DNA from: Euzebya sp.
GTDB lineage: Bacteria; Actinomycetota; Nitriliruptoria; Euzebyales; Euzebyaceae
NCBI RefSeq assembly: GCF_964222135.1
Contig: NZ_CAXQBR010000007.1
Location: 1-48,568 of the forward strand
Reading direction: 5' to 3'
DNA length: 48,568 bases
Of this stretch, positions 28,195 to 47,008 are shown in pieces; the stretch's first letter is position 1; every line of letters begins with the position of its first letter. The position numbers and the translations under genes were made by a program. The notes below the pieces were generated by a model. That model worked only from the letters and a program-made list of their open reading frames with translations, did not search any database and was not told the origin of the DNA.

Positions 28195-28384
28195 GATGGA
28201 TTCGACACCGTGGCCGACCTCCACGGGATGGATTCGACACCGAGACGCGGGCACACCCACCCCTCCACCCCCTCCGGGTCACTCAAGCCACGTGGGACCT
28301 CATCTCTGCGAGGGGTGGAGGCACGACGGTGTCGAATCCATCCACGGTGGCCCGACCCCACCCCCCAGAGATGTCGAATCCATC
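28195..28384. repeat. Intergenic element A: two forward and two inverted copies of GATGGATTCGACACCG
   Basis: Forward copies at 28195-28210 and 28227-28242 (exact, both preceded by CCACGG or CCACGGG) and inverted copies at 28327-28342 (exact) and 28371-28384 (ending ...CAT instead of ...CACCG). The forward pair is spaced 32 bases. The arms can pair so that the whole 190 bases fold as a nested hairpin. It fills the 268-base space between the divergent RDD and O-antigen-ligase-like genes. The same motif and layout recur at 46861-47008. Confidence 0.92.
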
Positions 28385-28412
28385 CGCGGTCGGGGAACCT
28401 CCGGTCGAGTCG

Positions 28413-28418
28413 TAGCGT
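28413..28418 (+). promoter_or_regulatory. Minus-10 box of the ligase-like gene
   Basis: TAGCGT, 10 bases before GTG 28429. No Shine-Dalgarno precedes either candidate GTG, so a leaderless start at 28429 is favoured. Confidence 0.45.
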
Positions 28419-28428
28419 GTACCCGCAG

Positions 28429-30285
28429 GTGGCCACACTCGTCGAGGAGCGCACGGGGCTCGCGCCGGTCTCCGCGGACGCCGGGCGACCGGTCGCGCTC
28501 GCGGTCGTCGCGCTCGCGGTGCTGAGCGTCGTGGCCGTGGACCCGTGGGGGTTCGTGCCGCACGGGCCGCTCCGCTGGGCCAGCACGACCACGGCGTTGC
28601 TGACCGCCGTCGCCCTGACCCGGGGGACCCTCCACCTGCCGCGCGGCATGGCCACGGCCTGGCTGGTGCTGCTGGCCGCGCTGGGTGTCTCCGCGGCGAC
28701 CGGCCTGGACCCCCTCCACGCGTGGATCGGGACCCCCGACCGCCGGATGGGCTGGCTCGCCTGGTTGGGCCTGGCCGCGGCCTGGGTGGTTGGCACGACG
28801 CTGTGGCCGCACCGCCGCACCGTCCTGCGGGGACTGGTCGTCGCCGGCGGGCTGCTCGTCCTCGGGGCCGGTGCCGACGCCCTCGGCTGGCTCCCCGATG
28901 ACGGGGTCACCGGCAGGATCGGCGGCACCTACGGCCAGCCGGCGCACCTCGCGGCGATGTGCACCCTCCTCCTGCCCGTCGCGGTCGGGGTTGCCCTGGC
29001 CCGTGACGACCCACCTCCGTGGAGGGGTGGCGCTGCCGTCGTCACCGTCGGGCTGGTGATCACGACGCTGGCCACCCAGACCCGCGGCGCCTGGATCGGG
29101 CTGCTCGTGGCGAGCGCGCTGGTCGCCCGGCCGGCAGCCGACCGCGTGCGATCCCGCCCTCTCGTCGCGGTCGCGGTCGGGGTCGTGGCGGGCGCGGTCG
29201 TGCTCCTGACGCCCATCGGGGCGAGGGTCGTCGCGGCGTTCGACCTCGAGGACGGCGGGACGGCGGGGGGCCGCCTCGCGGAGTGGGCCGTGGCCGCACG
29301 CGTCGTCGCGGACCACCCCTGGACCGGCGTGGGGCCCGAGGGGTACCGCATCGCCTTCCCCGCCGCCGTCGACGTGGGCTACGCGGCCACCTACGGCCGC
29401 GACGTCATCACCGACCGCGCCCACAACGGCCTGCTGGACGTCACCGTCGCCGGGGGGCTCCCCGCCGGCGCCGCCCACCTGGTCCTGACCGCGCTGGCCC
29501 TGCGCCTCGCCTGGCGCGCCCGGTCCGACCTCGACACCCGGACGGCGGGTATCGCCGTCGCCGTCGTGGCGTACGTCGTCCAGCAGCAGGCGCTCTTCCC
29601 GCTGGCCGAGGTGGATCCGGTCCACTGGGTCCTCGTCGGGCTCCTGACCGCCCGCGACCTGACCGCCCGCGACCTGACCGGCCACGAGACCCCGCCGACG
29701 GTCGGTCTGCGCGCCGCGGCCCTCCGGCTGCCCGCCCTGGCGCTTCTGGTCGCCGTGGTCGCCGCGGGCACCCTCGGCGTCGTCGCCGACCACCGGATGG
29801 CGAGGGCAGCCGACCTCGCGGTCCCGCCCACGACCGGGCGGGCGCTCGCGGTGGCCGACGCCGCGGTCCGACTGCGGCCCGACGACATCCGCCTGCGCTT
29901 CGCCGCAGCGCGGATCGCGGCACGCGGGGGCCGGATCGTCGACGTGGACGCCGCCCTCGATCGCATCGACGCCGGTCTGGAGTTGAGCCCTCGCGACCCC
30001 GCCCTGCGCGCAGAGCGCGCCGACCTCCTCCTCGAGCGGGCCCGGCGATCCGGCCTGCCGGGCGACCTGACCGCCGCCGTGACCACCGCCCGGACCGAGG
30101 TGGCGGCCGACCCGACCGATCCCGCAGCCCACGTCCGGCTGGGCACGGTCCTCGCCTACGCCGGCGAGCACGACCAGGCCTCCCGCGCTGCGGACGCCGC
30201 CGCGGCCATCGACCCCGACGCCGACGGGATCGCAGCCCTCCGCGCGCTGCTCGCCCTGGACCTCGACGCAGCGGACGGGTCATGA
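28429..30285 (+). CDS. O-antigen ligase/polymerase-like membrane protein with TPR tail
   Basis: A 618-aa membrane protein. About twelve hydrophobic segments cover residues 20-440. A conserved-looking Wzy_C/O-antigen-ligase region includes TQTRGAWIGLLVA, GRLAEWAVAARVVADHPWTGVGPEGYRIAFP and DRAHNGLLDVTVAGG (the R-x-x-W and H-N-x-L-x-x motif order of the family). The soluble C-terminal part (about 485-618) is alpha-helical with TPR-like units (LRPDDIRLRFAAARIAARGG, TDPAAHVRLGTVLAYAGEHDQA). It probably joins or polymerises surface glycans. It overlaps the sigma gene (ATGA). A 15-bp tandem repeat lies at 29644-29673. GTG 28417 is an alternative start. Confidence 0.75.
   Translation: MATLVEERTGLAPVSADAGRPVALAVVALAVLSVVAVDPWGFVPHGPLRWASTTTALLTAVALTRGTLHLPRGMATAWLVLLAALGVSAATGLDPLHAWIGTPDRRMGWLAWLGLAAAWVVGTTLWPHRRTVLRGLVVAGGLLVLGAGADALGWLPDDGVTGRIGGTYGQPAHLAAMCTLLLPVAVGVALARDDPPPWRGGAAVVTVGLVITTLATQTRGAWIGLLVASALVARPAADRVRSRPLVAVAVGVVAGAVVLLTPIGARVVAAFDLEDGGTAGGRLAEWAVAARVVADHPWTGVGPEGYRIAFPAAVDVGYAATYGRDVITDRAHNGLLDVTVAGGLPAGAAHLVLTALALRLAWRARSDLDTRTAGIAVAVVAYVVQQQALFPLAEVDPVHWVLVGLLTARDLTARDLTGHETPPTVGLRAAALRLPALALLVAVVAAGTLGVVADHRMARAADLAVPPTTGRALAVADAAVRLRPDDIRLRFAAARIAARGGRIVDVDAALDRIDAGLELSPRDPALRAERADLLLERARRSGLPGDLTAAVTTARTEVAADPTDPAAHVRLGTVLAYAGEHDQASRAADAAAAIDPDADGIAALRALLALDLDAADGS
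29644..29673 (+). repeat. 15-bp tandem duplication inside the ligase-like gene
   Basis: CTGACCGCCCGCGAC is present twice in tandem with a partial third copy, encoding LTARDLTARDLTGH in a cytoplasmic or periplasmic loop. Confidence 0.85.
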
Positions 30286-30926
30286 CCGCCGTGGACGAGC
30301 CGTCCCGAGATCGACGGAACCCCGCGGGTGGCTCGTGCGTGCACGGGGTGATGACCAACGCCCCACCGACCCCCGCCACCGGGTTGCGCCTGCCGGTCCA
30401 CGCCCTGGCGGCCCACCCCCACGACCCCGGCCGTGCCGCCGTCCGCGAGGCGGGCACCGCGGTCCGCGACTTCACCACCTTCTACGCCGACGCCTACGAC
30501 GGCGTCGCCCGCGCCCTCGTGCTCACCCTCGCCGACGCCGACCTCGGCGTCGAGGCCGCCGACGAGGCGATGGTCCGGGCCTACCAGCGCTGGGACACCG
30601 TCAGCGGCTACGACAACCCCGGCGGCTGGGCCTACCGCGTCGGCCTCAACTGGGCGCTGTCGCTGCGCCGCAAGCTGATCCGCCGCCTGTCGTTCGGCAC
30701 GCCTCCGGCGATCCCCGTCGAGGACGCCGAGATCGCCGACCCCTCCGTCATGGCCGCACTCCGCCGCCTCGACGTCAAGCTCCGCGCCGTCGTCGTGTGC
30801 CGCCTGCTCCTCGACTGGTCCGTCGAGGACACCGCCGCCGCCCTCGACCTCAAGCCCGGCACCGTCAAGAGCCGGCTCCACCGCGCCCTCGCGACCCTCG
30901 AACGATCCCTGGAGGACCCCCGATGA
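30282..30926 (+). CDS. ECF-type RNA polymerase sigma factor
   Basis: A 214-aa sigma-70 family protein. Region 2 (about 64-130) includes FTTFYADAYDGVARAL and EAADEAMVRAYQRWDTV, typical of SigE-like factors. Region 4 (about 155-210) includes the helix-turn-helix DWSVEDTAAALDLKPGTVKSRLHRAL. The ATG at 30282 overlaps the upstream stop (ATGA); ATG 30351 would remove 23 unmatched residues and is also possible. The next gene overlaps by four bases and encodes a protein with one membrane helix, as expected for a sigma/anti-sigma pair. Confidence 0.87.
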   Translation: MTAVDEPSRDRRNPAGGSCVHGVMTNAPPTPATGLRLPVHALAAHPHDPGRAAVREAGTAVRDFTTFYADAYDGVARALVLTLADADLGVEAADEAMVRAYQRWDTVSGYDNPGGWAYRVGLNWALSLRRKLIRRLSFGTPPAIPVEDAEIADPSVMAALRRLDVKLRAVVVCRLLLDWSVEDTAAALDLKPGTVKSRLHRALATLERSLEDPR

Positions 30927-32536
30927 CCCGCACCGACCTCCCCGACCACCCCGAGACCGCCGCACGGGTCCGCAGCGCCCTGCAGCGCACCGCCGCCGGC
31001 GTCCACCTCGACGTCCCCGGCGCCGACGCGGCTCGTGAGACCGCCCACCACCGAGCCCGACGCCAGCAGCGCGTCACCGCCGGCATCGCGGCGCTGGCCG
31101 TCGTGGCCGGCGGCCTCGCCGCGACCACCTGGGTCACCCGGGACCCCGAGGTCCAGCTCGCCGCCGGCGCGGGCGCCCCGCAGGCCGCGGACGTCGACCT
31201 GACGTGGACCGACGGCCCGCACTCCCTGACCAGCGCGCCGACGATCGTCCAGGACGCCGACGGGGTCCTCTACGCGCTGTCCACCGCTCCCGGCACCACC
31301 TGGGACGGGCCCGAACCGCCCGCCCAGGCCATCTACCGGTCGACCGACGGCACCACCTGGGAGCAGGTCGACGCCGACGGCGCCCCGCCGCTCGCCACCT
31401 TCGAGGTCGGCGGCGACGGCCTGCTCTACGGCCTGTCCACCGCCCCCGGGGGGGTCGTGCTCGCCTCGTCCGTCGATGGCGGCACGACCTGGCAGACCGA
31501 GCCGCTCCCGGCCGAGGCGGACATCCGCCCGGACGTCGCCGAGGGGATCCAGCTGTCCTCCGGTGGCCACCAGCTCGACGTGGTCCGCGCCGGCGAGACC
31601 ACCGTCGCCGCGGTGTCCACGCAGTGGTTCGTCGAGGCCGACGGTCTGGTCGACCCGGCCGATGAGGACATCGCCTACGTCGACGCCACCGACGCGGGCC
31701 TCGAGGTCCGGCGGATCCCCGTCGACCGCCGCGAGGCCGCGCCCGAACCGGCCGGCGTCCCCGCGGCCGACGCCACGCCCGCGCCATCGGCTGCGCCGGC
31801 GCCCGCCGTCGACGTGCCCGTCGAGGCGACCGAGGAGGTCGTCCGCACCATCCCCTGGTCCGAGGTCGGCCTGACCGGTCCCGCCGACCTCGTCACCCGC
31901 CGGGTGCTCACCGCCAACGGTGACGAGGGGTGGACCGCAGCCGACATCCCCGTCGAGGGGAGCGTCCGCGGGATGGCCGCCACGGCGGACGGGATCGTCG
32001 CGCTGGTGCAGGTCGGACCGACCGAGGGTCCGACGTCCCCGGTCCGCGTCGCCCGGTCGACGGACGGCGTCGCCTGGAGCGTGGACCCCGACCCGGTCGC
32101 GGACCTCAGCTACGTCGAGGTCGTCCAGACCGTCGGCGACGCCGTGGTCGCGGTGGGCCACACCTGGACCGAGGCGGAGACGAACGCGACCGTGCTGGCG
32201 AGCCACGACGGCGGGGTCACCTGGACGTCGACGTCGGTCGCCGACCTCGTCGAGGTGGCACCTGGCCGCCAGCTCGGGGTCGGCTCGGTCGGGATCGGAC
32301 CCCTCGGCGTCGCCCTCGCCACCTACGCGGTGGAGCGCGAGGGCGCCGATCCCGCGGTCGACACCTCGGTGCTGTTCAGCCCCGACGGCGTGGCCTGGGA
32401 CGTGATCGGCCTCGAGGAGATCGATCCCGATGCCACCGAGCTGCGGTGGACCGCCGTCACCGCCGACCGGGTGATCGTCGACGTGGTCCGCGCTGACGAC
32501 AGCCGCGCGACGGTGGTCGGCATCCCGACCTCCTGA
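30923..32536 (+). CDS. Membrane-anchored BNR-repeat protein, possible anti-sigma factor
   Basis: A 537-aa protein with a short cytoplasmic part (1-50, Arg/His-rich), one transmembrane helix (about 51-72, VTAGIAALAVVAGGLAATTWV without its first and last residues) and a large extracellular domain. The latter contains at least five Asp-box/BNR repeats of the sialidase-like beta-propeller: RSTDGTTWE, SSVDGGTTWQ, RSTDGVAWS, SHDGGVTWT, SPDGVAWD. No HxxxCxxC zinc anti-sigma motif is visible in the cytoplasmic part. Its overlap with the ECF sigma gene (ATGA) suggests it controls or reports to that sigma factor; this is inference from context. Confidence 0.7.
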   Translation: MTRTDLPDHPETAARVRSALQRTAAGVHLDVPGADAARETAHHRARRQQRVTAGIAALAVVAGGLAATTWVTRDPEVQLAAGAGAPQAADVDLTWTDGPHSLTSAPTIVQDADGVLYALSTAPGTTWDGPEPPAQAIYRSTDGTTWEQVDADGAPPLATFEVGGDGLLYGLSTAPGGVVLASSVDGGTTWQTEPLPAEADIRPDVAEGIQLSSGGHQLDVVRAGETTVAAVSTQWFVEADGLVDPADEDIAYVDATDAGLEVRRIPVDRREAAPEPAGVPAADATPAPSAAPAPAVDVPVEATEEVVRTIPWSEVGLTGPADLVTRRVLTANGDEGWTAADIPVEGSVRGMAATADGIVALVQVGPTEGPTSPVRVARSTDGVAWSVDPDPVADLSYVEVVQTVGDAVVAVGHTWTEAETNATVLASHDGGVTWTSTSVADLVEVAPGRQLGVGSVGIGPLGVALATYAVEREGADPAVDTSVLFSPDGVAWDVIGLEEIDPDATELRWTAVTADRVIVDVVRADDSRATVVGIPTS

Positions 32537-32590
32537 GCCCGGCCGGAGGCCCAGCCCGACGTGGGGGCGCGCCGCCCACCTGGCCACGCA

Positions 32591-32611
32591 TAGCATTTGC
32601 ATATGCATGCA
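32591..32611 (+). promoter_or_regulatory. argC promoter with overlapping ARG box (ArgR operator)
   Basis: TAGCAT (32591-32596) is a -10 box exactly 6 bases before ATG 32603. It overlaps an AT-rich palindromic island, TTTGCATATGCATGCA (32596-32611), which contains the perfect palindrome TGCATATGCA (32598-32607). Actinobacterial ARG boxes are built around TTGCAT/ATGCA half sites. ArgR bound here would cover the transcription start and initiation codon. Confidence 0.65.
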
Positions 32612-33643
32612 CGACCCGGCAGACTGCCTCGCATGGACGTCGGCATCGTAGGGGGATCCGGGTACGGGGGGGCGGAGCTGCTCCGGCTGCTCGCCAGCCA
32701 CCCCACCCTCTCGGTCAGGACCGTCGCGGCGGGGTCCGCAGCCGGGCAGGACCTGGCCGACGTGTTCCCACACCTTGGGCTCAGCGGGACCCTCGTCCCC
32801 TCCACCCCCGAGGCCCTGGCCGGGTGCGAGCTGGTGTTCCTGGCCACCCCCCACGCGGTGTCCCTCGACCTCGCCCCGCCGCTCAGGGCAGCGGGTGCGA
32901 CGGTCGTCGACCTGTCCGGGGCGTTCCGGCTGGACCCCGACACCTTCGAGGCCTGGTACGGCCTCGACCACACCGCCCGCGACGACAGCCCGGCCCCCTA
33001 CGGCCTCCCTGAGCTCTTCCGCGCCGACCTGGTCGGCGCCGGGCTGGTCGCCGGGCCGGGGTGCTACCCGACCGCGGCGCTGCTCGCCCTCGCCCCCCTC
33101 GCCGGGCTGGTCGACGCGGACAGCGTCACGATCGTCGGCATGTCGGGCACCAGCGGCGCCGGGAAGGGGCTCCGGGACGACCTCCACGTCAGCCACGCGC
33201 TCGGCAACACCGGCGCGTACGGGGCGCCGACGCACCGCCACACGCCCGAGATCGAGGCGCAGTGGAGCCGACTGACCGGCGCGTCGGCCACCGTCAGCTT
33301 CACCCCGCACCTCGTGCCGCAGGTCCGCGGCATGGTCGTCACCCTGAACGCCACCCTGGTCGACGACGCCGCCGACGTCCGCGCCGCCTACGCCGACCGC
33401 TACGCCGCCGAGCCGTTCGTCACCCTGCTGCCGCACGGCACCTGGCCGCAGTCGACGCACACGATCGGGGCCAACACCGCCCACGTGAACGTCGCCGTCG
33501 ATCCGCGGACCGGCCGCGTCACGGCCAGCTGCGCGATCGACAACCTCGCCAAGGGCGCCGCCGGACAGGCGCTGCAGGCCGCCAACGTCGCCCTCGGCCT
33601 GCCCGAGACCGCCGGCCTGCCGACGATGGCGGTGTACCCCTAG
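32603..33643 (+). CDS. argC: N-acetyl-gamma-glutamyl-phosphate reductase
   Basis: NADPH-dependent third step of arginine synthesis. The Rossmann start VGIVGGSGYGGAELLRLL, the catalytic Cys154 in GPGCYPTAAL and HRHTPEIEAQW match ArgC. Two starts are plausible: ATG 32603 (346 aa), which fits the leaderless geometry seen elsewhere (TAGCAT plus 6 bases), and ATG 32633 (336 aa), which fits the usual family N-terminus but has no Shine-Dalgarno. I chose 32603; the extra ten residues are basic and lie before the first strand. First gene of the arg operon, touching argJ directly. Confidence 0.93.
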   Translation: MHARPGRLPRMDVGIVGGSGYGGAELLRLLASHPTLSVRTVAAGSAAGQDLADVFPHLGLSGTLVPSTPEALAGCELVFLATPHAVSLDLAPPLRAAGATVVDLSGAFRLDPDTFEAWYGLDHTARDDSPAPYGLPELFRADLVGAGLVAGPGCYPTAALLALAPLAGLVDADSVTIVGMSGTSGAGKGLRDDLHVSHALGNTGAYGAPTHRHTPEIEAQWSRLTGASATVSFTPHLVPQVRGMVVTLNATLVDDAADVRAAYADRYAAEPFVTLLPHGTWPQSTHTIGANTAHVNVAVDPRTGRVTASCAIDNLAKGAAGQALQAANVALGLPETAGLPTMAVYP

Positions 33644-34855
33644 ATGGCCATCCCCTTCGAGATCGCCCCGCTCGACGACGGCGTCACCGCCCCGTGGGGG
33701 TTCACCGCCGCGGGGGTCACCGCCGGCCTCAAGGCCAGCGGCCGGCCTGACCTCGCGATCGTGGCCACCGACACCCCGGTCACGGCCGCCGCGGTCCTGA
33801 CCACCAACCAGGTGAAGGCGGCGCCCGTGGTCGTGACCGCCGAGCACCTCGCCGCGAGCGGCGGCCGGGCGCGCGCGGTGCTGCTGAACGCCGGGTCCGC
33901 CAACGCCTGCACCGGCCTCGAGGGGCTCGCGACCGCCCGGGAGGCCTGCGACCTCGTCGCCCACCACCTGGGCTGTGACGCCCATGAGGTCCTGATCTGC
34001 TCCACCGGCGTCATCGGCGTCCCGATCGACCGTCCCGCCTACCTCGCCGGCATCCCCAAGGTCGTCGCCGCGGCCGCCCCCGAGGGCGGTGCGGACGCCG
34101 CCGAGGCGATCATGACCACCGACCTCGTGGCGAAGGAGGCGGCGGTCCACGTCACCGACGCCGAGGGCGGCTCGGCCACGGTCGGCGGGATGTGCAAGGG
34201 CTCGGGGATGATCGCCCCCACGATGGCGACGATGCTGTGCGTGGTCACCACCGACGCGCCGCTCGAGGGGGAGGAGGCGGCGGCGATCCTCCGGCGGGCG
34301 ACGGACCGGACCTTCAACCGGATCAGCGTCGACGGGGTCATGTCGACCAACGACACGATCGTGCTGCTCGCGAGCGGCACCGCCGTCACCCCACCGGACG
34401 CCGACGCGGTCGAGGCGGGGATCACCGCCGTGCTCGGCGACCTCGCCACCCAGGTCGTCCGCGACGGGGAGGGGGCGCAGCGGCTCGTCCGCATCACCGT
34501 CCGCGGGGCGCTGGCCGAGGACGACGCCCTCGCCGTCGCCCGGCAGGTCGGCACCGACGACCTGGTGAAGACCGCCGTCGCCGGCGGCGACCCCAACTGG
34601 GGCCGCATCATCGCCGCGGTCGGCGCCTCGCCGGTCCTGATCGACCCCGGCTCTGTCGACATCGCCGTCGGCGACGTCACCGTCTGCACCGGCGGGATGG
34701 CCGCGCCGTTCGACCGGGCGGCGGCCGAGGCGGTGATGGCCGCCGACGAGGTCCAGGTGACCATCGACCTCGGGCTCGGCGACGCCGAGGCGACCTTCCT
34801 CACCTGCGACCTGACCCACGGGTACATCACGATCAACGCGGAGTACACGACGTGA
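33644..34855 (+). CDS. argJ: Bifunctional ornithine acetyltransferase/N-acetylglutamate synthase
   Basis: Transfers acetyl from N-acetylornithine to glutamate, closing the acetyl cycle (403 aa). The autoprocessing site is KGSGMIAPTMATML, with cleavage expected between Ala195 and Thr196; the new Thr196 is the nucleophile. GNPNWGR-like GDPNWGRIIAA in the C-terminal half is also conserved. The ATG follows the argC stop with no gap and the stop overlaps the argB GTG. Presence of ArgJ explains why no argE is seen. Confidence 0.96.
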   Translation: MAIPFEIAPLDDGVTAPWGFTAAGVTAGLKASGRPDLAIVATDTPVTAAAVLTTNQVKAAPVVVTAEHLAASGGRARAVLLNAGSANACTGLEGLATAREACDLVAHHLGCDAHEVLICSTGVIGVPIDRPAYLAGIPKVVAAAAPEGGADAAEAIMTTDLVAKEAAVHVTDAEGGSATVGGMCKGSGMIAPTMATMLCVVTTDAPLEGEEAAAILRRATDRTFNRISVDGVMSTNDTIVLLASGTAVTPPDADAVEAGITAVLGDLATQVVRDGEGAQRLVRITVRGALAEDDALAVARQVGTDDLVKTAVAGGDPNWGRIIAAVGASPVLIDPGSVDIAVGDVTVCTGGMAAPFDRAAAEAVMAADEVQVTIDLGLGDAEATFLTCDLTHGYITINAEYTT

Positions 34856-35796
34856 GCGGTGGGCTGGTGATGACCGGCCGTGCGCTCGAGGCGCAGGGCA
34901 AGGCGCGGATCCTCCAGGAGGCGCTGCCGTGGATGACCCGCTGGGCCGGGCGGACCGTCGTGGTCAAGTACGGCGGCAACGCGCTGTCCGACGGCGATGC
35001 GACGGTCGAGCACCCGGGGGAGGACCCCTCCTTCGCCGCCGACGTGGCCCTGCTCCGCTCGGTCGGCGTCCGGGTGGTCGTGGTGCACGGCGGCGGCCCG
35101 CAGATCAGCGCGCTGTCCGAGCGGCTCGGGCTCGAGACCCGATTCGTCGACGGCAAGCGCGTCACCGACGAGGCGACCCTGCAGGCGGTCCAGATGGCAC
35201 TGCTCGGCCAGGTGAACCCGATGCTGGTCCGGATGATCTCCGAGGCGGGCACGCCGGCGGTCGGGGTCGCTGGCACCGACTCGAACCTGGTCCTGGCCCG
35301 CCAGCACGACCCCCGCCTCGGGCTGGTCGGCGAGGTCGAGTCCGTCGACCCCACGTACCTCCACCAGCTGCTCGACTCGGGTCGGGTGCCGGTCATGGCG
35401 ACGCTGTGCGCGACCGCGGAGGGTCGGGTGGTCAACGTCAACGCCGACACCGTCGCCGGCGCGGTCGCCGTCGCCCTCCGCGCCGACAAGCTGATCTACC
35501 TGACCAACGTCGCCGGCCTGTACGAGCACTTCGGCACGCCGGATTCGACCCTCCTCAGCGAGGTCGGCATCGACCGGCTGGCCCAGATGGTCGACGGCGG
35601 CGAGCTCGTGACCGGCATGATCCCGAAGATCGCCAGCATCATCGGTGCGCTGCGCGGCGGCGTCCCGCAGGCCCACCTGCTCGACGGCCGGATCGAGCAC
35701 GCCCTGCTGCTCGAGATCTTCACCGACTCGGGCGTCGGCACGATGGTGACCGCCGGCACCGCCGCGGAGGACACCGACCGGATGGAGCTCGCATGA
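34852..35796 (+). CDS. argB: Acetylglutamate kinase
   Basis: Phosphorylates N-acetylglutamate, normally the arginine-inhibited step (314 aa). Motifs: VVKYGGNAL near the N-terminus, VVVHGGGPQI, NVNADTVAGAVAVAL and LTNVAGLYE. The N-terminal helix ahead of the fold (about 7-28) fits the arginine-sensitive hexameric class. GTG 34852 is preferred because it overlaps the argJ stop (GTGA) with GGAG 8 bases upstream; ATG 34870 is an alternative. The stop overlaps argD (ATGA). Confidence 0.95.
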   Translation: MSGGLVMTGRALEAQGKARILQEALPWMTRWAGRTVVVKYGGNALSDGDATVEHPGEDPSFAADVALLRSVGVRVVVVHGGGPQISALSERLGLETRFVDGKRVTDEATLQAVQMALLGQVNPMLVRMISEAGTPAVGVAGTDSNLVLARQHDPRLGLVGEVESVDPTYLHQLLDSGRVPVMATLCATAEGRVVNVNADTVAGAVAVALRADKLIYLTNVAGLYEHFGTPDSTLLSEVGIDRLAQMVDGGELVTGMIPKIASIIGALRGGVPQAHLLDGRIEHALLLEIFTDSGVGTMVTAGTAAEDTDRMELA

Positions 35797-37055: not shown

Positions 37056-37413
37056 CCGCCCGACCGTGCTGGTCGTCGAGGACGACGACTCCGTCCGCGC
37101 CCTGGTGGAGATGCTGCTCACCGACTCCGGCGTCGCCGTCACCACCGCCCGCGACGGGCTGGAGGGGCTCCTCAAGCTGTCCTTCGCCCGCCCCGCCGCC
37201 GTCGTGCTCGACATCATGATGCCGGACGTGAGCGGCATGCGGGTCCTCGACGAGCTCGCCGCCCAGCACGACGACATCCCGGTCGTCGTCGTCACCGGCA
37301 AGCCCGAGGCCGCTGCCGAAGCCCGCCGGCGCCTCGGCGACGAGAACGTCTTCGACAAGCCGTTCGACCCCGACCACCTCATCCGCCGCATCACCCAGAT
37401 CGTGGGGACCTGA
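37045..37413 (+). CDS. CheY-like single-domain response regulator inside the arg operon
   Basis: A 122-aa receiver domain with no output domain. All phosphorylation residues are visible: acidic pair Asp13/Asp14, phosphoacceptor Asp56 in VLDIMMPD, the Thr in VVVTGK and the Lys in FDKPF. The ATG lies inside the end of argD (11-base overlap) and the stop is 4 bases before the argF ATG, so it is cotranscribed with arginine genes. No kinase is adjacent. I know of no standard role for a receiver protein in this operon. Confidence 0.9.
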   Translation: MADDRPTVLVVEDDDSVRALVEMLLTDSGVAVTTARDGLEGLLKLSFARPAAVVLDIMMPDVSGMRVLDELAAQHDDIPVVVVTGKPEAAAEARRRLGDENVFDKPFDPDHLIRRITQIVGT

Positions 37414-38389: not shown

Positions 38390-38397
38390 GGGTGGTC

Positions 38398-38859: not shown

Positions 38860-38872
38860 GAGCACCAGTCCA

Positions 38873-40108: not shown

Positions 40109-40154
40109 CGGCGACGGCGCGTGCGGCGCGTGCGGCGTGTGCGCGGCCGTGCAG

Positions 40155-40278
40155 CTCAGATCTGAGGGGTGGGTCCGCCGGCGTCGCCGGGGCTCGGATC
40201 TGAGCGGTGGGTCGGGCACCCGGACTCCCAGATCTGGGGGCTAGGGTCGCTGAGCCACCCAACTCCCAGATCTGAGGA
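40155..40278. repeat. Intergenic element: four copies of an AGATCTG-centred motif
   Basis: Two forward 21-bp copies, CTCAGATCTGAGGGGTGGGTC (40155-40175, first 20 bases here without the last C) and a copy with two changes (40193-40213), are followed by two copies in the other orientation, ACTCCCAGATCTGGGGG (40224-40240) and ACTCCCAGATCTGAGGA (40262-40278). The last copy supplies the Shine-Dalgarno GAGGA of the lipoprotein gene at 40283. The element fills most of the 174-base space between argG and that gene. Confidence 0.82.
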
Positions 40279-40282
40279 CCGC

Positions 40283-40873
40283 ATGCGACATCGACAGGTC
40301 AGCCCCGCCAGGGCCGGGGTGGTGGCCCTGACCGGCCTGGCGGTCCTGACCGGCTGCGGGGGCGGAGGGGCGGGCCTGGCCGAGGGGCCGATCCCCACGG
40401 TGCCGGACGCCACCGCACCGCCGGTGCCCGAGCTGGACCTGGCGGTGACGGCACCGGCGGCGTCCACTCCACCGCCGGCACCGACCGCGCCGGCGGCCAC
40501 GTCGCCGCCGCCGGACGACGCCGCGGCCACGGCGCCTCCCGCCCCACCACCGCCTGCAGCGGACGTGCCCGACGACCCGGCCGCCTTCGGGCGCGAGGCC
40601 GGCGTGGCCGGGGTCCGCGACGCGGTCGCCACCGACCCCGAGGCCGCCGGGCCGCGCGGCCAGGAGCTGGTCGAACGGCTCGGCCAGGTGCTGGACCAGC
40701 CCACCCGGCAGCGGATCGACCAAGTCCGCCGGCAGGTCGAGCGGTGGGCCGAGCGCGACGAGCTGGCCGACGAGGTCGCGATCGCGGCCCTGGCGGCGCT
40801 CGAGCAGGCCCGTGAGGACGCGCCACCCCGCGGCGGTGACGACCGAGACCGTGACGACGACGAGGACGACTGA
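40283..40873 (+). CDS. Lipoprotein of unknown function between argG and argH
   Basis: A 196-aa secreted lipoprotein: signal peptide 1-24, lipobox LAVLTGC with Cys25, then a long Pro/Ala/Thr linker (about 40-100) of the kind that spans the cell wall. Residues 105-180 are a charged helical domain (DQPTRQRIDQVRRQVERWAE), and the tail is acidic (DDRDRDDDEDD). No family recognised. It lies 3 bases ahead of argH and so is probably cotranscribed with it, but a role in arginine synthesis is not evident. Confidence 0.65.
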   Translation: MRHRQVSPARAGVVALTGLAVLTGCGGGGAGLAEGPIPTVPDATAPPVPELDLAVTAPAASTPPPAPTAPAATSPPPDDAAATAPPAPPPPAADVPDDPAAFGREAGVAGVRDAVATDPEAAGPRGQELVERLGQVLDQPTRQRIDQVRRQVERWAERDELADEVAIAALAALEQAREDAPPRGGDDRDRDDDEDD

Positions 40874-40876
40874 CAC

Positions 40877-42313
40877 ATGAGCGACGCGAGCACCACCCCG
40901 ACCACCCCCGCGACCGGCGAGGGACGGCTGTGGGGCGGGCGGTTCGCCGCCGGCCCCGACCAGGCCGCCTGGGCGCTGGGGGTCTCCACCCACTTCGAGG
41001 GGCGGCTCTGGCCCTACGACCTGGCCGGCTCGGCCGCGCACGCCGACGAGCTGCGCCGCCTCGACCTGCTGACCGCCGACGACCACGCGGCGATCACCCG
41101 CGCGCTGACGCGGATCAGGGGTGAGTTCGAGGACGGCTCGTTCGCGTTCCTCCCCGACGACGAGGACATCCACGGCGCGATCGAGCGGCGGCTCATCGCC
41201 CTGGCCGGCGAGGCCGGAGGACGCCTGCGCGCCGGCCGCTCCCGCAACGACCAGATCGTCAACGACCTGCGGATGTACCTGGCCGATGCGATCGCGGCGA
41301 TCACCACCGACGTCCGGGCCGTGCAGACGGTCCTGGCCGACCAGGCCGAGCTGACCCTCGACGCCCTCGCGCCCGGTTACACCCACGTCCAGCGCGCCCA
41401 GCCCGTCACCCTCGCCCACCACCTGCTGGCCCACGCCTGGGGGCTCGATAGGGACGCGGGTCGGCTGCTCGACTGCCGGCGCCGGCTGCTCGACAGCTCC
41501 CCGCTGGCCTCGGGCGCGATGGCCGGGCTCACGCTGCCACTCGACCCGCAGCGGTACGCCGACGCGCTCGGCTACACCGGGACCGCCCCGAACACGATGG
41601 ACGCCGTCGCCGACCGCGACTTCGCCGTCGAGTTCCTGAGCGCCGCCGCCATGCTCGGCGTCCACCTCTCCCGGCTCTGCGAGGACGTCGTGCTGTGGGC
41701 GTCGGTCGAGTTCGGCTGGGCCCGCGTCGGCGACGCGTTCTCCACCGGCTCGTCGATCATGCCGCAGAAGCGCAACCCCGACGTGGCCGAGCTCGTCCGC
41801 GGCAAGACCGGCCGGCTCGTGGGCGACCTCGTCGGGCTGCTCGTGGTCCTGAAGGGCCTGCCGATGACGTACAACCGCGACCTGCAGGAGGACAAGGAGC
41901 TGGTCTTCGACGCCGTCGACACCCTCGCGCTGTCCCTGCCGGCCGTGACCGGCATGATCGCGTCGCTGACCTTCGACACCGAGCGCATCGCGGGCACGGC
42001 CGCCGGCGGGTTCGCCCTGGCGACCGACGTGGCGGAGGCGCTGGTCGTCGCCGGCGTCCCCTTCCGCAGCGCCCACGAGCGGGTCGGCGCCCTGGTCGCG
42101 GAGTGCGAGCGGCAGGGCATCGACATCACCGACCTGGCCCCCGAGGCCTTCGCCGCCGCGATGCCCGAGCTGGCCGGCGAGACGACCGCCGACCTGCTCG
42201 ACCCCGCGGGCGCGGTGCGTCGACGCAACGCTCCGCACGGGCCGGCGCCGGACGCGGTCGCCGGCCAGCTCGCCGCCCTCCGCGATCGGCTTGCCGCCGT
42301 GCCGCGCACGTGA
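40877..42313 (+). CDS. argH: Argininosuccinate lyase
   Basis: Splits argininosuccinate to arginine and fumarate (478 aa). Fumarase/aspartase superfamily motifs: WGGRFAAGPDQ at the start, RLRAGRSRNDQIVND, the His in YTHVQRAQPVTLAHHL, and the signature loop GSSIMPQKRNPDVAELVRGK with the catalytic Ser. It closes the arg set. The stop overlaps the GTG of the next gene. Confidence 0.97.
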   Translation: MSDASTTPTTPATGEGRLWGGRFAAGPDQAAWALGVSTHFEGRLWPYDLAGSAAHADELRRLDLLTADDHAAITRALTRIRGEFEDGSFAFLPDDEDIHGAIERRLIALAGEAGGRLRAGRSRNDQIVNDLRMYLADAIAAITTDVRAVQTVLADQAELTLDALAPGYTHVQRAQPVTLAHHLLAHAWGLDRDAGRLLDCRRRLLDSSPLASGAMAGLTLPLDPQRYADALGYTGTAPNTMDAVADRDFAVEFLSAAAMLGVHLSRLCEDVVLWASVEFGWARVGDAFSTGSSIMPQKRNPDVAELVRGKTGRLVGDLVGLLVVLKGLPMTYNRDLQEDKELVFDAVDTLALSLPAVTGMIASLTFDTERIAGTAAGGFALATDVAEALVVAGVPFRSAHERVGALVAECERQGIDITDLAPEAFAAAMPELAGETTADLLDPAGAVRRRNAPHGPAPDAVAGQLAALRDRLAAVPRT

Positions 42314-43500
42314 CCGCGGTCCGCCACGTCGACGACGACGAGCGTCGCCGGCGGCTGGTCCGCCGCCACCACCTGGGCCGCACCGCGGCGACGTGCCGGC
42401 AGGCCGTCGCCGATGTGCTGGCGATGCACTCGAGCGATCCGCTGACGCCGTTCCTGGGCCTGCGCGCACGGGTCCCGGACCTCACGATCGCGGCCATCGA
42501 CGCCGCCCTGTACGAGGAGCGGGGTCTCTGGCGCCTACACGCCATGCGCCGGACGCTGTGGATCGTCGACCGCGACGACGCCCCCGCGGTGCTGGCGGGC
42601 TCGACGGCCAAGGTGGCGGCCGCCGAGCGCCGGCGCCTGCACGGCTGGCTGGGCGCTCTGGACGACCACCCGGCTGCCGCGGACCCGGCGGCCTGGTTGG
42701 CGGATCTCGAAGCGGCGGTCCACGCCCAGCTCGCCGACGGCCCGATGGCGACCCGCGAGCTGTCGACCACCGTCCCGGGGTTCGCGACCAAGGTGACGCT
42801 CGGCACCGGCAGGTGGGCGCAGGAGGCGGCCATCGGTCCGCGGCTCCTGTTCCTCATGGCCATGGACGGCGATCCCGTGCGGGGCGCCCCGCTCGGCACC
42901 TGGCGGGCCAGCCAGTACGTCTGGCACGCCCACCGCCAGCGGTTCGGCACCGACCCGCCGACCCGGCCGTCGACCGATCAGGCGCAGGCCCAGCTCGCCC
43001 GCCGCCACCTGGACCGCTTCGGCCCGGTGACCGAGGAGGACCTCGCCTGGTGGATGGGCTGGACGAAGGCCGAGACCCGCCGCGCCCTGTCAGCCGTCAG
43101 CCCGGTCGAGGTCACCACCGACGCCGGGCCGGCGTGGGTCCTGCCCGGTGACGACGGACCGGAGCCACCGCTCGACGCCCCCGCCGTGGCCCTGCTGCCG
43201 GGACTCGACCCCTCGACGATGGGGTGGAAGGCGCGGGACTTCTACCTCGGCGACCACGGGGCCGCGCTCTTCGACCGCAACGGCAACGCCGGGCCGACGA
43301 TCTGGCTCGACGGGCGCGTCGTGGGCGGGTGGGCACAGGGACCCGACGGCGGCGTCCGCACGCGCCTGCTCGAAGACGTCGGCGCGGACGCCGCCGCCCT
43401 GGTGGACGCCGAGGCCGCCGCGGTCGGCGCCTGGATCGGTGACGACGGCGTCACGCCGCGCTTCCGCACCCCGCTCGAGCGCGAGCTCAGCGGGGCGTGA
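42310..43500 (+). CDS. Winged-helix DNA-binding protein, AlkZ/YcaQ (HTH_42) superfamily
   Basis: A 396-aa protein of the HTH_42 superfamily, whose studied members are DNA glycosylases that unhook crosslinks or remove alkylated bases. Typical elements: ATCRQAVADVLAMHSSDPLTPFL near the N-terminus, LHAMRRTLWIVDRDD, the tandem winged-helix middle with FGPVTEEDLAWWMGW, and LLPGLDPSTMGWKARDFYL late. Where characterised glycosylases have a Q-x-D/Q catalytic motif, this one has MHSSD, as in a common actinobacterial subgroup, so catalysis is not assured. The GTG start overlaps the argH stop. Two polymerase/glycosylase genes follow nearby. Confidence 0.75.
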   Translation: MTAVRHVDDDERRRRLVRRHHLGRTAATCRQAVADVLAMHSSDPLTPFLGLRARVPDLTIAAIDAALYEERGLWRLHAMRRTLWIVDRDDAPAVLAGSTAKVAAAERRRLHGWLGALDDHPAAADPAAWLADLEAAVHAQLADGPMATRELSTTVPGFATKVTLGTGRWAQEAAIGPRLLFLMAMDGDPVRGAPLGTWRASQYVWHAHRQRFGTDPPTRPSTDQAQAQLARRHLDRFGPVTEEDLAWWMGWTKAETRRALSAVSPVEVTTDAGPAWVLPGDDGPEPPLDAPAVALLPGLDPSTMGWKARDFYLGDHGAALFDRNGNAGPTIWLDGRVVGGWAQGPDGGVRTRLLEDVGADAAALVDAEAAAVGAWIGDDGVTPRFRTPLERELSGA

Positions 43501-43526
43501 CAGCGGGGCCTGACAGCCGGGCCTGA
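43488..43526 (+). repeat. Triplicated 13-bp gene end including the stop codon
   Basis: CAGCGGGGCGTGA (43488-43500, the real end of the winged-helix gene), CAGCGGGGCCTGA (43501-43513) and CAGCCGGGCCTGA (43514-43526) are head to tail, with a decayed fourth copy starting at 43527. Each full copy contains a TGA. Confidence 0.9.
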
Positions 43527-43579
43527 CAACCGGGTCGGCCGTGGAGCCTGACCCGGCTGCCGTCGCCGACGGCCCGGAG

Positions 43580-43585
43580 TAGCCT
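43580..43585 (+). promoter_or_regulatory. Minus-10 box of the gene at 43596
   Basis: TAGCCT, 10 bases before the ATG, no Shine-Dalgarno: predicted leaderless. Confidence 0.45.
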
Positions 43586-43595
43586 CGCCCGCGCC

Positions 43596-44009
43596 ATGTC
43601 CTCCCCGCGCCCCTCCAACTCCTCCAAGCGGTCCGGCAGCCAGGTCCAGCTGCTGGCCCGGGTCGACGAGCTGGCGCGACGGGAGGGCCTCATCGCCGCC
43701 GACACCGCCAAGGCGCGGATCTACCGCGACCGCATCGGCGGCACCGTCATGTGGCTGCCGCACGGGCAGGGCCGTCTCGAGCTCACGCTGATCCAGGTGC
43801 GCATGGCGTCAGAGCAGCGCGCCGACCTGCTCCACGAACTGCTGGCCCGGTGCGCGGCGAAGTCCACCGAGGACATCCCCGCCCACGAGCTCGGCCTGAG
43901 CGCCGACGACGCGTGCGCCCACTGGGCCACCCTCGAGCGGGAGTTCTTCGGCGAGTACCTGATGGCCCACCGCGAGGTGCAGGCCGGCCACGGTCCCCGC
44001 TCGGCCTGA
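43596..44009 (+). CDS. Protein of unknown function
   Basis: A 137-aa cytoplasmic protein. Basic, Ser-rich N-terminus (1-15), then a region with LLARVDELARREGLI, an IYRDRIGGTVMWLPHGQGRLELTLIQVRM stretch of predicted beta structure, and C-terminal helices ending LEREFFGEYLMAHREVQAG. I do not recognise the family. It converges with the next minus-strand gene with a 6-base gap. Confidence 0.6.
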   Translation: MSSPRPSNSSKRSGSQVQLLARVDELARREGLIAADTAKARIYRDRIGGTVMWLPHGQGRLELTLIQVRMASEQRADLLHELLARCAAKSTEDIPAHELGLSADDACAHWATLEREFFGEYLMAHREVQAGHGPRSA

Positions 44010-44015
44010 TCGCGC

Positions 44016-44375
44016 CTACCCCGGGCCTGGCCCCCCGGTCTCGAGCTCCCGCACGTCGACGGTCGGCTCGGCGTCGAACGCGCCGGTGTCGAAGCCAGCC
44101 TCCTCGAGGCTCTCCCGGCCCTTGGACCGCAGGACCGGGTCGATCAGCGCGGCGGTCCACCGCCGCAGCGACTCCTCCGCCAGGCCGTGCGGCACCTCCA
44201 CGTCGAGGGTCACCGTGACCCGGACCGTCCCCGTCGGCAGGGGTTGGACCGTCCCCGGCGTCGCCCGCAGGACCTGGCGGTCGCCCGGGTTGAACAGCAC
44301 GAGCGTGCCGTCGTCGTCCACCGCGGCGACCTTGCCGACGAAGCCGCTGGCCCTGACCCACCTGCCGATCTCCAT
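44016..44375 (-). CDS. Protein of unknown function with small beta-barrel-like N-terminus
   Basis: A 119-aa cytoplasmic protein. Residues 1-45 (IGRWVRASGFVGKVAAVDDDGTLVLFNPGD) read like a short SH3-like barrel; the rest has TVRVTVTLDVEV strands and an acidic C-terminus. Family not recognised. ATG 44375 is preceded on its strand by TATCCT 6 bases away. It is divergent from polX and may share its promoter region. Confidence 0.6.
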   Translation of the reverse strand: MEIGRWVRASGFVGKVAAVDDDGTLVLFNPGDRQVLRATPGTVQPLPTGTVRVTVTLDVEVPHGLAEESLRRWTAALIDPVLRSKGRESLEEAGFDTGAFDAEPTVDVRELETGGPGPG

Positions 44376-44381
44376 GGGGCG

Positions 44382-44387
44382 AGGATA
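44382..44387 (-). promoter_or_regulatory. Minus-10 box of the minus-strand gene ending at 44016
   Basis: TATCCT read on the minus strand, 6 bases before the ATG, no Shine-Dalgarno. Confidence 0.5.
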
Positions 44388-44417
44388 GGCGCGAGGTGCT
44401 GCGTCACAGGTCGCCGC

Positions 44418-44423
44418 TAGAGT
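44418..44423 (+). promoter_or_regulatory. Minus-10 box of polX
   Basis: TAGAGT, 9 bases before the ATG, no Shine-Dalgarno; divergent to the box at 44382. Confidence 0.5.
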
Positions 44424-44432
44424 CCCGCAGCG

Positions 44433-46187
44433 ATGGCTTGGGTGAACGAGGAGCTGTCGCGTCGCTTCGGCGAGATCGCGACGCTCCTGAAGATCAGCGG
44501 CGCCGACCGCTTCCGGGTCCGCGCCTACGAGCGCGCGGCCGACGCGATCCTGGCCGCCCCGGTCGACCTCGGGGAGATCGAGCGCGCGGCGCTGTCGGAC
44601 GTCAAGGGCATCGGCGAGTCGACGGCCAAGAAGATCGTCGAGTACCTCGACACCGGCACGATCGGGATGCTCGAGGAGCTGCGCGGCGAGGTCCCCGCCG
44701 GCGTGGTCGAGCTGACCCGCATCCCCGGCCTCGGCCCGAAGACCGCCGTCCTGGTGCACTCCCAGCTGGGCGTCGACTCGATCGCCGGGCTGCAGGAGGC
44801 GATGGACGACGGCCGCGTCGCCCAGCTGAAGGGCCTGGGCGCGAAGACGGTCGAGAACCTGCGCGAGTCCCTCCGCCGCATGGGCGCGAAGGACACCGAC
44901 CGGGTACCCGCCGCCGACGCGATCGCCCTCGCCGAGGAGATCTGCGCCCGGCTGCGGATCCGCGACGACATCCAGCAGGTCACCTACGCCGGCAGCCTCC
45001 GCCGGATGCGCGAGACGATCGGCGACATCGACGTGCTGGTCGCCTCCGACGCCGACCCGGTGCCCATCCACGAGGCGTTCCGCGCCCTCGACCTGGTCGA
45101 GTCCGTCATCGCGGCGGGGGAGAAGAAGTCCTCGGTCATCACCGTCCGCGGCATCCAGGCCGACCTGCGGGTGGTCGAGCCGGTCGCCTGGGGTGCGGCG
45201 CTGCAGTACTTCACCGGCTCGAAGGCCCACAACGTCCGCGTGCGCGAGCGGGCGGTGCGCCGGGGGCTCCTGCTCAACGAGTACGGGATCTTCCACCGCG
45301 ACGAGGAGGGACAGGCCGGCGAGCGCATCGCGAGCGAGACCGAGGCGGACGTGTACGCCGCCGTCGACCTGGCGTACGTGCCGCCGGCCATGCGCGAGGA
45401 CACCGGTGAGGTGGACCGCGCGGCGGACGGCACCCTCCCCCGCGTCGTCGAGATCGCTGACCTGGTCGGCGATCTGCACGGCCACTCCGACTGGTCGGGA
45501 GACGGCAAGGCCACCCTCGCGGACATGGTGGCCGCGGCGGCGGCCAAGGGGTACGCGTACTGGGCGGTCACGGACCACGCCCTGCCCCTCCTCCCGATGA
45601 ACGGCATCAGCGCCGCCCAGCTGCGCGAGCGCCGCGAGGCCATCCGCGCGCTCCAGGACGACCACGAGATGGCGATCCTCGACGCCTCGGAGCTGAACAT
45701 CGGGTTCGACGGGGAGGTGGACTACGACCTCGACGTCCTCCTCGAGCTGGACTGGACCGTGGCGAGCGTCCACACCGGCCTCGAGAAGGGCGAGGCGGTC
45801 CAGACCGCGCGGATCCTGCACGCCATCGAGAACCCCGGGGTGAACGCCATCGGGCACCTCACCGGGCGCAAGATCGGCAAGCGGCCCGGCTACGAGGTCG
45901 ACCTGGCCGCCATCCTGGAGGCCTGCCGCGAGACGGGGACGGCGCTCGAGGTCAACGCCTCCCCCCGCCGCCTGGACCTGTCCGGCGAGATGGTCCGCCG
46001 GGCGGTGGAGGCCGGTGTGACGCTCACGATCAGCTGCGACGCCCACTCGGTCGGCGACCTCGACAGCATGCGCTACGGGGTGTGGACCGCCCAGCGGGGG
46101 TGGGCGACGCCGGCGGACGTGCTGAACACCCGCGGGGTCGACGACCTCCGCGCGTTCGTGGCCGCCAAGCGGGAGCGGCTGCTCTGA
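44433..46187 (+). CDS. polX: Family X DNA polymerase with PHP domain
   Basis: Bacterial PolX (584 aa), a gap-filling repair polymerase with a metal-dependent PHP nuclease. Helix-hairpin-helix segments at about 52-70 (LSDVKGIGESTAKKI) and 92-105 (LTRIPGLGPKTA). The polymerase site has YAGSLRR and GDIDVLV with metal ligands Asp198 and Asp200, plus Asp244. The PHP domain (about 345-575) begins GDLHGHSDWSGDG with its His/Asp ligands and continues with VTDHAL, SVHTG, GHLTG and CDAH. Likely works in base excision repair, consistent with the glycosylase gene directly downstream. Confidence 0.95.
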   Translation: MAWVNEELSRRFGEIATLLKISGADRFRVRAYERAADAILAAPVDLGEIERAALSDVKGIGESTAKKIVEYLDTGTIGMLEELRGEVPAGVVELTRIPGLGPKTAVLVHSQLGVDSIAGLQEAMDDGRVAQLKGLGAKTVENLRESLRRMGAKDTDRVPAADAIALAEEICARLRIRDDIQQVTYAGSLRRMRETIGDIDVLVASDADPVPIHEAFRALDLVESVIAAGEKKSSVITVRGIQADLRVVEPVAWGAALQYFTGSKAHNVRVRERAVRRGLLLNEYGIFHRDEEGQAGERIASETEADVYAAVDLAYVPPAMREDTGEVDRAADGTLPRVVEIADLVGDLHGHSDWSGDGKATLADMVAAAAAKGYAYWAVTDHALPLLPMNGISAAQLRERREAIRALQDDHEMAILDASELNIGFDGEVDYDLDVLLELDWTVASVHTGLEKGEAVQTARILHAIENPGVNAIGHLTGRKIGKRPGYEVDLAAILEACRETGTALEVNASPRRLDLSGEMVRRAVEAGVTLTISCDAHSVGDLDSMRYGVWTAQRGWATPADVLNTRGVDDLRAFVAAKRERLL

Positions 46188-46210
46188 CCTCCCCCGGTTG
46201 GGGGGATCCG

Positions 46211-46807
46211 GTGGACCTCGCGTTCCTGGCCCGACCCTCCACCGCGGTGGCGCCCGACCTGCTCGGCTGCGTGCTGGTCTGCCCCGGGGAGGGGACGGCC
46301 GCACGGATCGTCGAGGTGGAGGCGTACGACTCCACCGACCCGGCCGCGCACACCTTCCGCGGCCGCACGCCCGGCAACGCGGTCATGTGGGAGCGCGCCG
46401 GACACCTCTACACCTACTTCACCTACGGCATGCACTGGTGCGCGAACGTGGTCACGGGCGAGGTGGGGGAGGGGCAGGCGGTGCTGCTCCGCGCGGCCGA
46501 GCCGCTGGCGGGGGAGGAGGTGTTCCGCGCCCGGCGGGGTGACCGCCCGTCGCGGCGTGATCTGCTGCGCGGTCCGGCGCGCCTGGCCCAGGCCTTCGGG
46601 CTCGGACGGGACCATGACGGACTGGACCTGCTCGCGCCTGACGCCCCCTTGCGCGTGCACCGGCGGGTCGGGCCGGCACCGGAGGTCGTGGCGGGCCCCC
46701 GCGTCGGCGTCCGCCGGGCTGCCGACGTGCCGTGGCGCTTCGCCGTCGCGGACAGCCCGTGGGTCTCGCGGTACGTGCGGCACCCGAAGGCCCCTCCCGC
46801 GAGCTGA
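46211..46807 (+). CDS. DNA-3-methyladenine glycosylase, AAG/MPG family
   Basis: Removes alkylated purines from DNA (198 aa). The active site IVEVEAYDSTDPAAHTFRG contains the catalytic Glu37 and Tyr39; WERAGHLYTYFTYGMHWCANVV forms the family beta core, and LLRGPARLAQAFGL the conserved helix. GTG 46211 has GGGGGGAT as Shine-Dalgarno and gives the correct family start. It follows polX by 23 bases, which makes a glycosylase-polymerase repair pair. Confidence 0.92.
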   Translation: MDLAFLARPSTAVAPDLLGCVLVCPGEGTAARIVEVEAYDSTDPAAHTFRGRTPGNAVMWERAGHLYTYFTYGMHWCANVVTGEVGEGQAVLLRAAEPLAGEEVFRARRGDRPSRRDLLRGPARLAQAFGLGRDHDGLDLLAPDAPLRVHRRVGPAPEVVAGPRVGVRRAADVPWRFAVADSPWVSRYVRHPKAPPAS

Positions 46808-46860
46808 GCGACCCTCCCCCTCCCCCGGGTGGCGGGGTGGCGTGGTGGTGGGTCAGCGGG

Positions 46861-47008
46861 GATGGATTCGACACCGTCAGGGGGCCCCACGGGATGGAAT
46901 CGACATCTCACCCGCCTCACGCGCCACTGCAGTGGACCCTGGCCACGTGCGCGACCCGAACGGGGCAGGAGGGTGTCGAATCCATCCCGGCACGGTGTCG
47001 AATCCATC
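46861..47008. repeat. Intergenic element D: second locus of the GATGGATTCGACACCG element
   Basis: Forward copies at 46861-46876 (exact) and 46893-46906 (GATGGAATCGACAT), inverted copies at 46972-46986 and 46993-47008 (exact). Forward spacing is 32 bases, the same as at 28195. Both loci also hold a GCCACGTG in the central spacer. It fills the 246-base space between the convergent glycosylase and penicillin-binding protein genes; no gene is seen there. GC-rich hairpins around 46810-46830 and 47015-47030 may help terminate transcription. Confidence 0.92.

Follow-up and report, generated by a model that had tools for sequence, protein, structure and literature searches.

The two repeat loci and their copies in the genome

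A stretch of 48,568 nucleotides from Euzebya sp. (assembly GCF_964222135.1, contig NZ_CAXQBR010000007.1), referred to here as the window, contains two intergenic regions in which the same 16-bp motif occurs as two forward and two inverted copies, and the question they raise is what kind of element is built in this way and what accounts for its presence at both places. A sequence-only reading of the window had offered a palindrome of the REP/BIME type (repetitive extragenic palindrome/bacterial interspersed mosaic element), a remnant of a miniature inverted-repeat transposable element (MITE) or a protein-binding array, and had predicted many genomic copies. The motif was found where that reading had placed it, at 28195 and 28227 on the forward strand and 28327 and 28369 on the reverse strand of the first region, and at 46861 and 46893 (+) and 46971 and 46993 (-) of the second, and the first region does lie between divergent genes and the second between convergent ones. 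The window holds 9 matches to the motif with up to 3 mismatches, against 0.47 expected, and 0 of 100 shuffled sequences reached 9. The motif itself stands, and GGATGGAWTCGACAYC is a better form of the 16-bp site.

We searched the full assembly (5.06 Mb in 111 contigs) for GGATGGAWTCGACAYC with up to 2 mismatches and obtained 47+48 places, compared with 1 for the reversed control. Almost all of these 95 places fell into about 22 clusters, here called F1 elements, nearly all of which consist of two forward and two inverted copies, with a few having lost or gained one. When genes were called with a codon-usage gene caller, all 22 clusters were located between genes (4 divergent, 4 convergent and 14 tandem), many of them just past stop codons. 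Their neighbours are unrelated housekeeping genes, such as gyrA, clpX, hisA, purL and an alaS-like gene, and one element is situated between cofD-like and cofE-like genes. The exclusively intergenic placement, the mixed gene orientations and the unrelated neighbours show a dispersed element that is extragenic and has no tie to promoters, as had been anticipated; the copies were neither limited to the two window loci nor scattered at random through coding sequence. A transcription-factor regulon was considered and rejected because the sites do not lie at promoters of related genes. Other details proved local: the 32-base spacing and the spacer GCCACGTG are both present at the window loci, but the former is one of several spacings in use, and the latter recurs only as looser variants in 1-2 other loci and was discarded as a general feature of the element.

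Helical phasing of the sites

Over 84 F1 sites, all positions of the 16 bp are nearly invariant except W and Y, and the linkers between the sites look mostly unrelated. Pair spacings take the values 22, 32-34, 42-45 and 53-54, in steps of approximately 10.5 bp, and centre spacings the values 80, 91-92, 101-105 and 113-117. At 10.5 bp, 41 pair spacings gave a Rayleigh R of 0.92 and 22 centres one of 0.69, values that 0 of 20000 uniform simulations reached in either case, with the best period of the centre spacings taken alone being nearer 11.7 bp. The steps of about 10.5 bp indicate that the F1 sites stay on one face of the helix, and, judged by its spacings, the F1 layout is one of protein-DNA phasing and not of an RNA hairpin.

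The idea that these are RNA elements, terminator-like or otherwise structured hairpins dispersed after genes, has in its favour that the inverted copies could pair and that many elements follow stop codons directly, but we consider it extremely improbable. The variable site positions of the F1 arms show no covariation, only 4 of 19 elements have the same pair spacing on the left as on the right, the spacing steps fit B-DNA, a search of the elements against Rfam returned no match, and related elements in two sister species (see below) have three sites pointing one way and one the other. Nor is the F1 site a palindrome of the hairpin type, and no GTAG/CGTC tag was seen in it. The outermost sites of an F1 element are inverted with respect to each other and thus form terminal inverted repeats at its tips.

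Nuclease genes flanked by the elements

The F1 elements are linked to one gene, L076:5241-6245- on contig C104 of the same assembly, which has an F1 element on each side and encodes a protein of 334 aa. Three further paralogs of this gene, whose products show approximately 38-40% identity to the F1 protein, each have a different site family on both flanks: CCACGGATCGACTCC for F2 (contig C45), GCACGGATCGACCAC for F3 (contig C41) and GTGCACCGAGAGT for F4 (contig C55). The F2, F3 and F4 sites are also dispersed in the genome as elements outside genes, so that in place of the single repeat family first presumed, there are four gene/element pairs. For comparison, we used G001 and G003, two sister species of the same genus, and G002. 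The G003 homolog of the F1 gene is likewise flanked by two elements. G002 has no F1 sites; a GTGTACCGARAGT family is dispersed in it and flanks its own gene copy, whose product is 55% identical to the F4 protein. Because GTGTACCGARAGT resembles the F4 site, the kinship of protein and that of site agree in this case. The pairing of gene with element family is thus evident at the level of sequence. The neighbours of the four genes encode a HAD hydrolase, ALDH, polyphosphate kinase, GlpX, RpiB, a permease, DUF3072, an SDR and a patatin, and no AbiEii/DUF1814 toxin gene was found beside any of the four. A fifth, divergent homolog in this genome (L282, G000:C83:46634-47518) has no recognisable flanking array.

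The families differ in their layout. In F2 elements, a core of 92-93 bp is accompanied by extra sites at 21, 33, 43 and 53 bp, whereas F3 and F4 elements mostly show a spacing of 73-75 plus 39-41 bp. The 7-mer CAGGTCA occurs within 26 of 89 elements, compared with 1.6 expected, and it is the top or near-top 7-mer separately in the F2, G002 and G001/G003 elements.

In Pfam searches, the family members possess an N-terminal AbiEi_4 domain and a C-terminal DUF559 or REase_MTES_1575 domain; the flanked gene matched AbiEi_4 and DUF559 only, with no Y1/HUH transposase of the REP-associated tyrosine transposase (RAYT) type, and the AbiEi profiles of PADLOC also match the protein. In the AlphaFold2 model (predicted local distance difference test score 91.7), residues 2-206 align with Streptococcus agalactiae AbiEi (6y8q; Z 11.5, root-mean-square deviation 6.1 over 188 residues) and residues 209-305 with the catalytic domain of I-Bth0305I (3r3p; Z 11.6, deviation 2.2 over 94). 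The model also matches 3hrl (Z 11.4), which a sequence profile finds as well (E 9e-6). Five residues, E212, D240, E251, H257 and D264, are the same in all 12 members aligned, in keeping with a predicted EDxHD active site. According to the model, the linked protein is an AbiEi-type fold (a winged helix plus an antitoxin-like domain) fused to a C-terminal EDxHD/Vsr-like nuclease. Between G001 and G003, the linked gene has a nonsynonymous divergence (dN) of 0.33 and a synonymous divergence (dS) of 1.46 (dN/dS approximately 0.22), indicating that it is under purifying selection. The gene for a DNA-binding protein that the sequence-only reading had suggested looking for therefore does co-occur with the repeats, but it encodes an AbiEi-like protein with a Vsr/EDxHD-type nuclease and not a RAYT/Y1 transposase; with this and the lack of hairpin covariation, the REP/BIME identity falls.

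Turnover of the elements between sister species

G001 and G003 contain related elements, built of GGATGGAATCGMCTCC sites in a rigid + 22 + 53/64 + 41 - layout. G003 lacks the G001 element L144 and has about 17 bp between the two flanking genes. Likewise, L151 of G001 has no counterpart in G003, L126 and L133 of G003 have none in G001, and at L130 a single site remains in the other species. At L140, L141 and L129, the orthologous place holds an element of another site subtype. In addition, L144 is 80% identical to L131, at an unrelated locus of G003, from tip to tip only, and it can also be aligned with L141, elsewhere in G001. Presence/absence together with tip-to-tip identity at unlinked loci shows that each element moves or turns over as a unit.

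In the G001/G003 elements at L131, L140, L141, L144, L210 and L211, the sites of any one element mostly have the same subtype ending (CCCC, CTCC or CTCA/G). The subtype at an orthologous place can differ between the two species, as though sites had been homogenised or entire elements exchanged. A divergent region beside a SpoU methylase gene (L071, L134 and L146) holds an element in the Euzebya sp. assembly, G001 and G003; the site layouts differ, and the region could be either an old common position or a hot spot.

Polymorphism of this kind, short non-coding elements and outermost sites that form inverted terminal repeats would also be expected of MITEs mobilised by a conventional insertion sequence with a DDE transposase. 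We regard this explanation as very improbable. No transposase gene with these ends turned up, although transposases were not searched for across the whole genome; the polymorphic loci, where no empty site was base-precise, showed no target duplication; and the linkers have diverged while the sites are unchanged. The one insertion sequence encountered, an IS256-family copy with a 410-aa Mutator-type transposase (L127:4001-5685 in G003), was rejected as an autonomous partner since it merely interrupts an element whose G001 orthologue (L142) is intact and free of it. Contrary to the earlier suggestion of a MITE remnant, the elements are probably not remnants of a recognised insertion sequence.

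Distribution across the phylum

Of 396 genomes from the phylum, 67 have homologs of the linked protein (E < 1e-20), in many cases several of them. A shuffle-based test for flank repeats gave very strong results, but real-gene controls were noisier, and we therefore used a stricter cross-flank test, in which at least 5 exact 12-mers had to be common to the 350-bp flanks on the two sides of a gene. This test was passed by 6 of 8 homologs in the genus, 5 of 14 in the class and 3 of 13 in the phylum, versus 0 of 267 control genes of these genomes. Periods close to 62 and 73 bp are seen in some arrays of the class and phylum homologs. Five distant homologs (L263, L257, L264, L274 and L279) have regular gene-side arrays with a period of about 62 or 73 bp or paired inverted sites 36 bp apart, and the site sequences of these arrays are unrelated. 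A scan of 84,980 genomes for the direct-repeat-pair pattern gave 12 stretches across unrelated taxa, which were taken as chance, and the same pattern was absent from viral contigs. Protein searches of a plasmid collection and of PHROGs gave no hit.

A proposed gene-plus-dispersed-element system and its alternatives

Dispersal, intergenic placement, phasing, the pairing of genes with site families, the nuclease residues, the CAGGTCA core in several families and turnover can all be read in the sequences, and the explanation that we are inclined to accept is a gene-plus-dispersed-element system resembling that of REPINs and RAYTs but based on an unrelated enzyme, with 13-16-bp sites of its own for each protein. 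With the same leaning, which applies to this reading as a whole, both F1 loci of the window would be non-autonomous copies belonging to one of four paralogous systems of this type. The elements are most likely bound, cut and spread or copied in the following way. The winged helix of each paralog would bind the sites of its own family, and multiple protomers bound along the same face of the helix would form an inverted, bent complex that folds the element over its core. Cleavage by the nuclease domain would take place at the core or at the element tips, and repair of the break would on rare occasions copy an element or move it to another intergenic place. The outcome would be a long-lived, vertically kept enzyme gene accompanied by a small population of short passenger elements.

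REP sequences and REPINs are short inverted-repeat intergenic elements with diverse spacers, and their enzyme gene is flanked by repeats and persists for long periods (PMC8049555, PMC3733652). In the same manner, the F1 repeats are present in multiple copies between genes, and the F1-F4 genes are flanked on both sides by their own repeats. However, the enzyme is an AbiEi plus EDxHD nuclease protein instead of a Y1 HUH protein, the sites are 13-16 bp long instead of a 20-40-bp palindrome forming a GTAG/CGTC-tagged hairpin, and each element has three to several phased sites, with four families in one genome. The system would work like REPIN/RAYT and yet is not a member of it, the enzyme not being Y1 and the repeat not being a tagged hairpin.

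The AbiE type IV toxin-antitoxin systems share the AbiEi fold with residues 2-206 of the linked protein (S. agalactiae AbiEi, 6y8q; Mycobacterium tuberculosis Rv2827c), and AbiEi proteins also bind inverted repeats near their own gene, at the promoter and cooperatively (PMC7319586). This invites a different explanation, an operator/decoy network, in which an autoregulated AbiEi-like nuclease serving as a toxin or in defence or repair would use the gene-side arrays as operators, the dispersed arrays would titrate, anchor or restrain it, and only ordinary turnover would act on them. Besides the known promoter binding (PMC7319586), the arrays on both sides of the gene, the conservation of sites while linkers drift and the persistence of positions between species would fit such a network. 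Nevertheless, arrays are present downstream of the gene and between convergent genes as well, no AbiEii/DUF1814 partner adjoins any of the four genes, the neighbours of the elements have no common function, and one subfamily is found at unlinked loci with identity confined to the element; we therefore judge it unlikely. Unlike AbiE, moreover, the system has an extra C-terminal nuclease, and its arrays flank the gene on both sides and are dispersed genome-wide. It is not AbiE, as it has no toxin, nor is it a classic homing intron system. The EDxHD homing endonuclease I-Bth0305I, which dimerises on a very long target (PMC3943268), and the Vsr/DUF559 nucleases (NGO0050, 3hrl) resemble it in the C-terminal fold and in the conserved acidic, His and Asp residues, but here the nuclease is combined with an AbiEi DNA-binding module and associated with cognate arrays in many copies, in place of an intron.

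Phage attP-type recombination sites are composed of arm sites and core sites. The elements resemble them in having opposed, helically phased outer sites that are arm-like and enclose a core motif of another sequence. They differ in that the linked gene encodes neither a tyrosine nor a serine integrase, the arms are family-specific, the core is common to several families, and the copies are many.

The phasing, strict intergenic placement and promoter independence could also reflect chromosome architecture, with the arrays anchoring a nucleoid, segregation or nucleoid-occlusion-like protein and being kept for DNA looping. In a 1.65-Mb part of G003 contig C1 (about 2.12-3.77 Mb), roughly opposite dnaA, no F1-type element was found, a gap that points the same way and is statistically weak. 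An essential architecture system would not be expected to have four parallel families in one genome, with different sites, or positions that change from species to species, and orientation does not track the replichores, which makes this explanation quite improbable. Replichore polarity was itself rejected: the asymmetric elements of G003 form long same-orientation runs, yet there is no switch at the origin (position 34 of C1 for dnaA), and GC skew is weak.

Several observations weigh against the gene-plus-dispersed-element system that we favour. First, at least 8 of the 13 G001 elements have a counterpart in the orthologous intergenic region of G003, and the differences in presence/absence are unpolarised between gain and loss. 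Second, no target-site duplication was seen at the polymorphic loci, and the flanks there are not base-precise and leave no base-precise empty site; thus, no insertion event was caught cleanly. Third, the linkers diverge while the sites are near-perfect, which resembles selection on standing sites as much as mobility, and CAGGTCA is scarce in F1 (1 of 22) and F3 (1 of 11). Fourth, no clear array accompanies L198 of G002 or the C83 homolog, and arrays are lacking beside the majority of homologs elsewhere in the phylum, so the pairing of gene and array is common near the Euzebya genome and patchy beyond.

More tentatively, and with somewhat less belief than doubt, we suggest that these systems form a widespread actinobacterial class of elements, mobile or domesticated, in which an AbiEi fold with an EDxHD nuclease is the mobilising enzyme, helically phased family-specific arms surround a core common to several families, and a single genome can contain several independent enzyme/site pairs that co-diverge in specificity. 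In the open-access literature searched, which does not include subscription papers, no description of an AbiEi-nuclease gene paired with dispersed arrays was found, and priority is not established. If the interpretation is correct, it would be a second, unrelated solution to the REPIN/RAYT arrangement, put together from a toxin-antitoxin repressor fold and a homing-enzyme nuclease domain, with parallel copies of different specificities within one genome. It would also supply a natural set of at least 5 protein/site pairs for decoding AbiEi winged-helix recognition, suggest a testable role for DUF559-type genes across the Actinomycetota, and provide an independent case for why bacteria keep small populations of intergenic repeats.

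Elements and flanking genes in the window

The coordinates of the window features are listed in Table 1. In addition to the two F1 elements, the window contains an F3 element that the sequence-only reading had not noticed. Its three perfect sites are at 24298 (+), 24372 (+) and 24413 (-), and it is situated between genes at 23294-24235 (-) and 24525-24779 (+).

Table 1. Elements, sites and neighbouring genes in the 48,568-nucleotide window
Feature	Coordinates	Strand	Description
F1 element A, 192 bp	28194..28385	.	four sites ++ --, pair spacings 32 and 42, centre 102; divergent genes
F1 site, element A outer left	28194..28209	+	GGATGGATTCGACACC
F1 site, element A inner left	28226..28241	+	GGATGGATTCGACACC
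F1 site, element A inner right	28328..28343	-	GGATGGATTCGACACC on - strand
F1 site, element A outer right	28370..28385	-	GGATGGATTCGACATC on - strand
F1 element B, 150 bp	46860..47009	.	four sites ++ --, pair spacings 32 and 22, centre 80; convergent genes
F1 site, element B outer left	46860..46875	+	GGATGGATTCGACACC
F1 site, element B inner left	46892..46907	+	GGATGGAATCGACATC
F1 site, element B inner right	46972..46987	-	GGATGGATTCGACACC on - strand
F1 site, element B outer right	46994..47009	-	GGATGGATTCGACACC on - strand
F3 element	24298..24427	.	site GCACGGATCGACCAC, layout + 74 + 41 -; cognate gene on contig C41
RDD family membrane protein	27081..28160	-	flanks element A; context only
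O-antigen ligase-like protein	28417..30285	+	flanks element A; context only
Methylpurine-DNA glycosylase	46211..46807	+	flanks element B; context only
Penicillin-binding protein with PASTA domains	47054..48442	-	flanks element B; context only

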